Source: Bordetella parapertussis
GTDB lineage: Bacteria; Pseudomonadota; Gammaproteobacteria; Burkholderiales; Burkholderiaceae_B
Direction of reading: 5' to 3'
Length of the DNA stretch: 64,000 nucleotides
Assembly (NCBI GenBank): GCA_945865935.1
Contig: CAMBFI010000011.1
Coordinates: forward strand, 62,001 to 126,000
Below are positions 40,253 through 42,857 of the stretch, one piece after another. A program made the position numbers and the translations under genes. The notes beneath the pieces are model-generated. The model made no database searches. It had not been told where the DNA came from and saw only the letters and a list, made by a program, of their open reading frames with translations. Every line of letters starts with the position of its first letter. Position 1 is the first letter of the stretch.

Positions 40253-40828
40253 TTATAAAACGAATAAAGGAAATAAGGTAAAGCTGATGCGACCAAGAAC
40301 CATCATTGCGATTTGAGCGAGCACCAACAGAACAAGCGGAGCGAGATCTAGCGCACCAAGCTTGGGTGTGATTCGGCGGATTGGAGCAAGGAGCGGGTCG
40401 GTCAGCGTGGTCAATACCGGCATGATGGTAGCCATCGGATTGACCCAGGACAATACCGCCTGAATAAGCGTCATCCAAACGATTAAGTTCAGTGCCCAGC
40501 GCCCCAGCGTGACAATACTTGCGCCGATGAGCCCCGGAATGAGTTTGGCCGGAAGCATGCTTGAGGTGGACACCAGCCACATCAAGAGTAAATAGGCCAT
40601 TGCCGCCAGCAAGGCTCCGAGTAGGCTGGCCCAATCAAAGAGACCACCGTTGGTAGGAACCACCTTGCGTAAAGGTTCGACTAGCCAGTTAGTGGCTTGG
40701 TGAATTGCCTGAGACATAGGATTAAAGGGGTGCAGCTTGGCGGCATGAATCCATGCGCGTGCCAGCAGGATTGCCCCGACTAAATTGAAGACGATGTCGA
40801 GCAAAAAACGAAGGATCTCACCAATCAT
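40253..40828 (-). CDS. YggT family integral membrane protein
   Basis: 191-residue protein with two copies of the YggT module, each made of paired hydrophobic helices; the NPMSQAIHQATNWLVEPLRKVVP and NPMATIMPVLTTLTDPLLAPIRRITP segments are the repeated motif. Members have been linked to osmotic tolerance and cell-envelope assembly. It precedes the channel gene on the same strand by 41 bases, consistent with a shared osmotic-stress role, which is inference. Confidence 0.9.
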   Translation of the reverse strand: MIGEILRFLLDIVFNLVGAILLARAWIHAAKLHPFNPMSQAIHQATNWLVEPLRKVVPTNGGLFDWASLLGALLAAMAYLLLMWLVSTSSMLPAKLIPGLIGASIVTLGRWALNLIVWMTLIQAVLSWVNPMATIMPVLTTLTDPLLAPIRRITPKLGALDLAPLVLLVLAQIAMMVLGRISFTLFPLFVL

Positions 40829-40950: not shown

Positions 40951-40978
40951 AAAAAAACCGTCCGGCGAACCGGACGGT
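40951..40978 (-). terminator. Intrinsic terminator of histone H1-like gene
   Basis: On the minus strand: 9-base-pair stem ACCGTCCGG / CCGGACGGT with a four-base loop (plus-strand bases 40957-40978), followed by seven T. It lies 28 bases after the stop codon reached by the -1 frame of the histone gene (41007) but about 150 bases after the stop in the zero frame. Confidence 0.93.
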
Positions 40979-41006
40979 CTGGTCATACAAAACCTTAGCT
41001 AAGCGC

Positions 41007-41128
41007 TCAGGGACGGCCACCCGTAGGAAAGGGCCAAGACGCTGCAGGATTCAGGGCGGTTTTTGCACCTGGAGCTGCAGCGGTCGAGGGGGCAGCGGCT
41101 GCCGGCTTCTTAGCAGCAGGCTTTTTAA
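41007..41128 (-). other. Out-of-frame C-terminal tail of the histone H1-like gene
   Basis: Directly after the zero-frame TAG (41131-41129), the -1 frame continues for 41 more codons: IVKKPAAKKPAAAAP, then an Ala/Pro-rich stretch and the ending ALNPAASWPFPTGGRP, stop at 41009-41007. The same AKK/KKPAA repeat unit continues across the shift, and the hydrophobic WPFPTG ending resembles tails I recall from Burkholderiales H1-like proteins. It would be joined to the main frame by one extra A in the ten-A run at 41132-41141, giving 134 residues in all. Confidence 0.8.
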
Positions 41129-41410
41129 CTATTTTTTTTTTGCAACAGGCTTCTTAGCAACTTTTTTAGCAGCTGGCTTCTTAGCTGCTTTTTTAGCTAC
41201 TTTTTTTGCTGCTGGCTTCTTAGCAGCTGCCTTTTTTACAACTTTTTTCGCTGCAGGCTTCTTAGCAGCTACTTTCTTAACAACTTTCTTCGCTACTTTT
41301 TTCGCTGCTGGCTTCTTAGCAACTACTTTTTTTGCGACTTTCTTAGCTGCAGGTTTTTTAGCTGCGGCTTTCTTCACTGCTTTTTTTGCTGCTTTTTTGG
41401 CTGTTGCCAT
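41129..41410 (-). CDS. Histone H1-like DNA-binding protein (zero-frame product)
   Basis: 93-residue, extremely Lys/Ala-rich protein built of imperfect AKKPAAKKVAKK repeats, as in the H1-like nucleoid proteins of Bordetella and relatives; it should bind DNA by charge and compact it. It begins MATAKKAAKKAVKKAA with AGGAG upstream. The zero frame ends PVAKKK-stop inside a run of ten A (41132-41141), while the natural-looking C-terminus is found in the -1 frame just beyond. So the gene is either frameshifted by a sequencing error, or uses ribosomal or transcriptional slippage, or is phase variable. Repeat number in this family varies between strains. Confidence 0.88.
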   Translation of the reverse strand: MATAKKAAKKAVKKAAAKKPAAKKVAKKVVAKKPAAKKVAKKVVKKVAAKKPAAKKVVKKAAAKKPAAKKVAKKAAKKPAAKKVAKKPVAKKK

Positions 41411-41560
41411 GGTAATACTCCTTAGTTCAGGGTCCCAAACATTAAAACCCGTGCTCGACTAGCCCCACCATGAGACGTCGTTTCGCCCGAGTTATTCATC
41501 GGCACAAGCCCCTACTAAACTGCAGTAGCACAGCGGTTTGCGCTAATGAATCCGGCACAG

Positions 41561-41672: not shown

Positions 41673-42857
41673 TTATTCCCAGTTAAGGGCGCCGCCAGTT
41701 TGATACTCGATCACGCGTGTTTCAAAGAAATTACGTTCCTTCTTTAAATCAATCATCTCTGCCATCCAAGGGAAGGGATTTTCTTCCTGGGCGAACAAAG
41801 GCTCGATTCCGATCTGTTGGCATCTACGGTTTGCAATAAAGCGCAGATAAGACTTGAACATCGGCGCATTCAGACCGAGCACGCCGCGTGGCATGGTGTC
41901 TTCAGCGTAGGCATATTCCAAGTCCACCGCTTTGGCAAACAGGGCGCGAATTTCTTCGCGGAAGGCGGGTGTCCAAAGCTGTGGGTTTTCGAGCTTAATC
42001 GTGTTGATCAGGTCAATGCCGAAATTGCAGTGCATGGACTCATCGCGAAGGATGTACATGTACTGTTCGGCGGCCCCTGTCATTTTGTTTTGACGGCCAA
42101 GTGCCAGAATCTGCGTAAAGCCAACATAGAAGAACAAGCCTTCCATCAGACAAGCAAACACGATCAACGACTTCAGCAGGGTCTGATCGGTTTCGAGAGT
42201 GCCCGTTTTGAAGTTGGGGTCAGCGATCGCATCAATGAATGGGATCAAAAACTGATCTTTCGCCCGAATCGAAGGGACTTCGTTGTAGGCATTAAAAATT
42301 TCAGACTCGTCCAAATCCAGGCTCTCAACAATATATTGATAAGCGTGGGTGTGAATTGCCTCTTCAAAGGCTTGACGCAATAAGAACTGGCGGCATTCAG
42401 GCGCTGTGATGTGGCGATAGGTGCCCAACACAATGTTGTTTGCTGCGAGCGAGTCGGCTGTAACAAAAAAGCCAAGGTTGCGTTTGATAATACGTCGCTC
42501 GTCTTCAGTCAGGCCGGTGGGGTTTTTCCACAAGGCGATATCGCGAGACATGTTGATCTCTTGCGGCATCCAGTGGTTGGCGCAAGTGGCGATGTATTTT
42601 TCCCAAGCCCACTTGTACTTGAAGGGGACGAGTTGGTTAACGTCAGTTTGGCCGTTGATGATCCGCTTGTCCGCGACATTCACGCGGGTTGCGGGATCAG
42701 GAGCCTGAGGCTTTTGAGTCAGGCCAGGGGTCGGCAGAGCGGAGTCACCAAAAACGCCCGTCGCGGCACGTGCGGGCATTGAAGCCGGCATCGGCACACC
42801 ACCGGCGGCAATCGGCGCCGCGGTTTGTAGAGAAATTTCGTCGTTCCAGGTCAGCAT
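41673..42857 (-). CDS. nrdB: Class Ia ribonucleotide reductase beta subunit
   Basis: 394-residue diiron-tyrosyl-radical subunit that supplies the radical for deoxynucleotide synthesis. [16 protein letters not shown] (165-180) carries a metal-ligand Glu and His169, with Tyr173 aligning with the radical tyrosine; the second helix pair has [14 protein letters not shown]. About 60 N-terminal residues are Ala/Pro-rich and precede the conserved [15 protein letters not shown]. The gene follows nrdA by 18 bases. Two hairpins lie downstream. Confidence 0.95.

Follow-up and report, generated by a model that had tools for sequence, protein, structure and literature searches.

In the window analysed here, a stretch of 64,000 nucleotides from contig CAMBFI010000011.1 of a Bordetella parapertussis assembly, a gene for a histone H1-like protein is split at a run of ten adenines (A10) that directly adjoins a stop codon, and the rest of the coding sequence lies in the −1 frame. 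The layout recurs in relatives and in a second genus, and both the tract and the tail behind it are under selection. We read it as a conserved programmed frame change from which two forms of the protein, one short and one long, are predicted, with a lean towards slippage of RNA polymerase and with the ribosome as partner or close rival; judged from sequence, we give this full reading slightly more than an even chance. That the recoding is real and conserved we consider very probable. What we infer is slippage itself, how much of it there is and where in expression it takes place, and that both forms matter.

The split gene and its A10 tract

The elements concerned were read directly from the sequence of the window:

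41129..41410, minus strand: short-form open reading frame (ORF), H1-like K/A/P/V repeat protein of 93 amino acids ending ..PVAKKK
41132..41141, minus strand: A10 slippery tract, GCA AAA AAA AAA
41129..41131, minus strand: zero-frame TAG stop abutting the A10 tract; TAG stands here in 21/21 broken genes of the window's genus
41007..41132, minus strand: −1-frame tail, 41 codons plus TGA, ending ASWPFPTGGRP; also supported by its ratio of nonsynonymous to synonymous polymorphism (pN/pS, see below)

The zero frame opens with the ATG at 41410 and its 93 codons are closed by the TAG at 41131-41129. From the tract, the −1 frame runs through IVKKPAAKKPAAAAPSTAAAPGAKTALNPAASWPFPTGGRP to a TGA (41009-41007); its first few residues prolong the repeat and its C-terminal end reads ..TALNPAASWPFPTGGRP. 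One extra A, or two fewer, fuses the frames, and with one extra A the product has 93 + 41 = 134 residues. The initial annotation had described the KKK-TAG end after A10, the −1 tail and the 134-residue product exactly, and the slippery heptamer A-AAA-AAA that it named is in phase. Its suggestion that two forms may arise by slippage is supported by the conserved tract, the adjoining stop and the −1 tail. Its term ‘hydrophobic’ for the tail is loose, as the tail is rich in Ala, Pro and Lys and only the end, WPFPTGGRP, is distinctive.

Default decoding would thus end just past the A tract and give a short lysine-rich protein, while a one-A change at the tract would give a long protein that ends in the conserved ..NPAASWPFPTGGRP. 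The main route would be RNA polymerase slippage on A10, by which some mRNAs would carry one A more or two fewer; a −1 ribosomal shift on the in-phase A-AAA-AAA would be its partner or close rival. By analogy with tssM1 of Citrobacter rodentium (see below), short and long H1-like protein would be expected to occur side by side.

The gene product is putatively a Burkholderiales histone H1-like DNA-binding protein. The short ORF matches Pfam HC2 with E=1.5e-5 and 25.7 bits, below the cut-off of 40, and on its own reaches 21 bits against NCBIfam NF038053 (histone H1-like DNA-binding protein; cut-off 80), which G001, a relative of the same genus with an uninterrupted (‘open’) frame, passes with 100.8 bits. 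NF038053 proteins combine K/A/P repeats with a WPFPTG end, as does the window gene; the members sampled in other genera are mostly a single open frame, whereas the window gene is split at the tract. We take Bordetella BpH1 to be a histone H1-like relative of the NF038053 type. Of 268 genomes in the family, 212 contain the WPFPTG-type tail pattern, none of them more than once. In genus g23 (loci L140 and L142-L145), a WPFPTGSRP tail is found on a different protein, in which a RRRRSGAAKPRKLKGATTT stretch replaces the KK-rich repeats; judging from these proteins, the tail may be a self-standing module. As for the role of the motif, our guess is a contact with itself or with a partner, which the short form would lack.

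Conservation in two genera and selection on tract and tail

Relatives were located by the NrdB gene as a synteny anchor together with the WPFPTG DNA pattern. In the window's genus (g1; closest named genera by NrdB: Achromobacter and Pusillimonas), NrdB is found in 30/32 genomes and the tail in 29/32, the other three being without the tail pattern. Five of the 29 were dropped, their contigs ending before the tract, which left 24 readable genomes. The gene is broken exactly at the tract in 21 of these (19 A10-TAG, 2 A9-G-TAG); in the three open ones the tract is likewise retained in its position, as A10, A10 and A9, so that the comparison of tract lengths proposed initially gives 21 A10 and 3 A9. 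The stop lies 95 nt from the tail in 20 of the 21 broken genes and 104 nt in one.

Two scans across the order (399 genomes, 159 genera), both of which require the exact WPFPTG-type DNA pattern, such that lineages with other tails would escape them, led to a second genus. The scan for A9 upstream of the tail matched eight genomes (the window's own, G586 and six of genus g73), and that for A7-R-TAR before the tail, which covers shorter versions of the tract, also matched eight of the 399 (the window's own, six of g73 and G499). G499 reads in frame, as do G586 and G190, which have A9 near the tail; none of the three is a case. Genus g73, from another family, is presumably Polynucleobacter. Its tail is present in 139/151 genomes and absent from 12; 114 of the 139 were read and 25 left out. 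A stop stands at the tract in 94/114, with the tail in the −1 frame in 93 of these: 89 A9-G-TAA, 3 A8-G-TAA and 1 A10-G-TAA. A further 16/114 are open, six of them with an A10-A11 tract, and 4/114 are irregular. Counted by tract, 93 of the 104 genomes with at least 8 A default to the short form, six are open and five irregular (G733, G777, G750, G787 and G717). One g73 genome, G797, carries the tail pattern twice. Because the tails end in GGRP in g1 and mostly in GTRP or GSRP in g73, the two layouts read as two probable origins rather than a transfer.

Elsewhere in the family, 102 of the 110 genes sampled are open, seven were left unscored by the lysine criterion and one is broken without a tract; in these 110 genes, no A run within the 170 nt preceding the tail is longer than 9, a length reached in one gene. 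The sample comprises 110 of the 183 tail-bearing family genomes outside g1, with genera g33-g43 outside it. The tractless break (locus L112, genome G105) reflects error or decay and was not counted. Eighty named loci gave 52 in frame, 27 without the tail and one broken, a member of the window's own genus. A protein-based scan for the repeat ORF returned 592 matching stretches and confirmed none as a relative, probably owing to the low complexity of the repeat. The plasmids found by DNA similarity were all from Pediococcus and Apilactobacillus, with identities of 67-72%.

Since the layout recurs in 21/24 g1 and 93/114 g73 genomes, the break at the tract is beyond chance. The initial annotation had put forward a homopolymer sequencing error as the main alternative. 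Homopolymers are prone to misreading, and g1 includes many fragmented assemblies; however, a one-off error in one assembly is excluded by the relatives with the same break, several of them single contigs of near full genome size, and we put its probability at practically nil. It had also mentioned phase variation, in which replication would alter the tract length from cell to cell and so toggle the tail. Among species the tract does take the lengths A8, A9, A10 and A11, and the open G753 and the A8 genomes G750 and G777 lie near A9 genomes. At the species level the fit is nevertheless poor, tract length and frame being near uniform within clades: the 24 g1 genomes and the 93 broken g73 genes are dominated by one length each, and open states mostly track clades. 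Such toggling is very improbable.

The tail is under purifying selection. Its pN/pS is 0.093 in g1 (21 genomes) and 0.291 in g73, and heterozygosity at the three codon positions of the −1 frame is 0.04/0.03/0.32 in g1 and 0.10/0.08/0.26 in g73. Over the last 13 codons, pN falls to 0.000 in g1 and 0.020 in g73. In g73, pS is 0.27 in the first nine tail codons, compared with 0.31 in the final 13 and 0.36 in nrdB; because it is only slightly lower there, a structural constraint on the early tail is unproven. The tail might also be translated separately, by re-initiation past the stop. Tail-frame TTG and GTG codons occur in 71/94 and 43/94 g73 genes; the window tail, on the other hand, contains no ATG, GTG or TTG, none precedes WPFPTG in 19/21 g1 genes, and the tract would be left unexplained. 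We regard re-initiation as barely credible.

The homopolymer itself is also selected. The counts that follow use the genes with a stop at the tract whose start could be parsed, namely 20/21 in g1 and 90/94 in g73, and those upstream of the tract exclude its last four codons and the tail. All-A lysine triplets are absent there (0/6 in g1, 0/265 in g73), the triplets always containing AAG, and no A run exceeds 7 in the 20 g1 and 90 g73 genes. The base before the lysines is A at the tract in 20/20 g1 and 87/90 g73 genes, compared with 114/410 (28%) and 212/1504 (14%) of the other lysine runs, and it remains A also where the preceding codon is GTA or GAA. The end of the neighbouring nrdB has a pS of 0.68 across 20 broken g1 genomes, and the tract is kept nonetheless.

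The surroundings of the gene in the window are as follows:

41418..41423, minus strand: Shine-Dalgarno-like AAGGAG, 7 nt 5′ of the ATG (direct reading)
40955..40980, minus strand: intrinsic terminator-like hairpin with T tail, 11 pairs (computed)
41673..42857, minus strand: NrdB, ribonucleotide reductase small chain, upstream; synteny anchor (Pfam PF00268, E=2.4e-90)
40253..40828, minus strand: YGGT-family protein, downstream (Pfam PF02325, E=1.2e-28)

The strong terminator announced 28 bases past the tail stop is present as a hairpin, although it begins at 40980, 26 bases past the TGA. The string A10-TAG has two copies in the 3.25-Mb assembly, one being the H1-like gene. The other (C7:134615-134627) ends a different ORF, which reads the run in frame (..KKKIVPFAKK); by eye, with no search made, this ORF looks like a RelE/HigB-type toxin, and a small ORF follows directly.

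The proposed slipping step

Between polymerase and ribosome the balance is nearly even. We lean slightly towards the polymerase as the main step, for which we put the chance at about one half, and both kinds of slippage might contribute. The polymerase is favoured by a pure run of 9-10 A where a heptamer of seven would do, and by two g73 genomes with an A8 tract (G777, locus L272; G750, locus L296), in which the default form ends in KKSK-stop and the opposite one-base change, the loss of one A, gives the long form. The alternative is −1 programmed ribosomal frameshifting at A-AAA-AAA or A-AAA-AAG beside the stop, on a uniform mRNA and aided by a hairpin in some members. We consider it a real possibility, if at clearly less than an even chance. 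A Shine-Dalgarno-like stimulator was found in 0/114 broken genes (motifs after PMC4066793). Hairpins were searched 3-14 nt downstream of the slip site, and in the A10-TAG set including the window (17 sequences) structure was not above a codon-matched control (z −0.85 and 0.06), which is conservative as it draws its codons from the same tails. Moreover, 9-10 A are kept where 7 suffice, and also in lineages that are already open.

Several observations nevertheless weigh against our reading, and the first of them favour the ribosome. In the broken genes the heptamer, A-AAA-AAA or A-AAA-AAG, is in phase and immediately precedes the stop. The 114 broken genes (21 + 93) need a −1 change, and only G777 and G750 the opposite, that is, −1 in 114/116 of the genes broken at the tract with a tail reachable by one base; as section 10 of PMC3711429 takes a uniform direction among orthologues to mean ribosomal frameshifting, this near uniformity leans to the ribosome. 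The extra A before the lysines completes a second heptamer, so that it leaves the ribosome in play. The hairpins of A9-G members lie moderately above the codon-matched control, with a mean z, at two scanning lengths, of −1.8/−2.8 in two g1 A9-G genes and −1.3/−1.1 in 67 distinct g73 sequences; those of g73 average −16 kcal/mol, and the strong ones of G003 (−21 kcal/mol) and G021 (−24 kcal/mol) each begin 10 nt downstream. In G003 (locus L065), the start of the tail is 9 nt longer than in its relatives, which makes a perfect 12-bp hairpin 10 nt past the slip site. Hairpins placed like this one after the slip site are known from insertion-sequence frameshift signals.

Other such points concern the device as a whole. 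In g73, 10/114 genomes are open without a tract, so that the device is dispensable there, and 3/93 broken genes have only A8. In G733 (locus L261), the stop lies at an A9-G tract with the tail in the stop's own frame, and a shift at the tract misses the tail; this would be explained by another indel or, as a contig end is close by, by an error of assembly. In the nine open genomes with at least 9 A, a gain of one A also leads to a stop, two residues later in eight and seven in G011, which makes the hidden stop in part a feature of the repeat. The repeat unit AAA-GTA-GCT, present in the window, hides a TAG one base off frame, and for this reason a hidden stop alone carries little weight, in contrast to the homopolymer and its frame, which are strong evidence. 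Finally, the surveyed genomes are related, and their counts are not independent events.

Default form, function and known systems

The nine open genomes with a long tract are G001, G011 and G018 in g1 and G693, G763, G668, G774, G656 and G798 in g73. Loss of one A from their A9-A11 leads in 9/9 to ..KKK-stop, the short end of the broken genes. In the nrdB tree of g1 (in which row G026 is labelled A10-TAG although its contig stops after A10-T), the broken G021 is sister to the open G011 (100/100), and the open G001 groups with G016 and G020 (100/98) inside the A10-TAG part; from these placements, several switches of the default form seem to have occurred, with the tract staying. In the g73 tree, four open A10/A11 genomes and the irregular G787 form one clade (100/99), seven tractless open genomes another (99/98), and G763 sits on a long, uncertain branch; this tree holds 104 of the 114 genomes and has many short rows, low inner support and an unsettled bootstrap.

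The most serious rival on function, which can be combined with either step, is a rescue or neutral ratchet: the long form would be needed, the short form would be waste, and slippage would rescue an accidental indel. The open long form is commoner in other genera and therefore probably ancestral, and PMC5009743 names the correction of ‘savior’ indels as a use of frameshifting. Yet an indel in the tract would restore the frame, and the great majority of the g73 genomes with at least 8 A stay short by default; open lineages, for their part, retain A9-A11 and are a single A away from the short end of the broken genes. We consider rescue unlikely, although it deserves to be kept in mind. Returning to programmed slippage, conservation of the frame points to possible selection for a mixture of the two forms, as with those of TssM. 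At a little under an even chance, two genera of different families would have independently evolved poly-A slippage for two H1-like isoforms at a set ratio, with selection keeping the product pair: the default flips, while the tract and a stop one A away remain.

Such a device would add a nucleoid-type protein to A-run recoding; its layout is found in two genera, in 114 genomes altogether, and the second genus is probably Polynucleobacter, which is abundant in fresh water. It opens to testing why a bacterium would want its H1-like protein in two versions, only one of which bears a C-terminal motif present in most genomes of the family. In practice, gene callers are likely to truncate the protein or to flag the gene as broken in g1 and g73. 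Among the matches listed in literature searches, one of which deals with Chlamydia Hc2, no title or abstract opening reports this H1-like frameshift; the word ‘histone’ is absent from the main text of PMC3711429 and has one unrelated match in the searched part of PMC5009743. In PMC9227772, a different gene, chlD, is reported with a translational frameshift, with Polynucleobacter duraquae among the genomes considered there.

Few cases are known in which both products have proved important, tssM being one of them. A-run recoding as such is predicted widely among bacterial genes, with 146 clusters given in PMC3711429. In magnesium chelatase test cassettes described in the same article, frameshifting reached 10, 40 and 63% with runs of 7, 9 and 11 A, respectively; given these figures, a sizeable fraction of the long form would be plausible for the H1-like gene. 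Its repeats recall those of Pseudomonas AlgP, which has H1-like KPAA repeats as in the window protein and, unlike it, a separate N-terminal domain (PMC9239181); the word ‘frameshift’ is absent from the main text of that article.

The dnaX gene likewise makes two forms, tau and gamma, from A9-A10 by transcriptional slippage in Thermus or from A-AAA-AAG on the ribosome in Escherichia coli, and 17 dnaX genes with two ORFs likewise gain length from a −1 shift, as summarized in the text of PMC3711429; it differs in being another gene and in that the E. coli shift yields the shorter product. The nearest precedent, by analogy, is tssM1 of Citrobacter rodentium, in which an A11 run before a stop undergoes transcriptional slippage and both forms and their ratio are needed, according to the account in PMC4256274. 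There, as in the window gene, an A run abuts a stop, the other frame restores the C-terminus of the family and two lengths of protein result or, for the window gene, would result. Slippage in tssM1, like the need for both forms and for their ratio, was shown by experiment, whereas the H1-like layout is known from sequence and is conserved through two genera.
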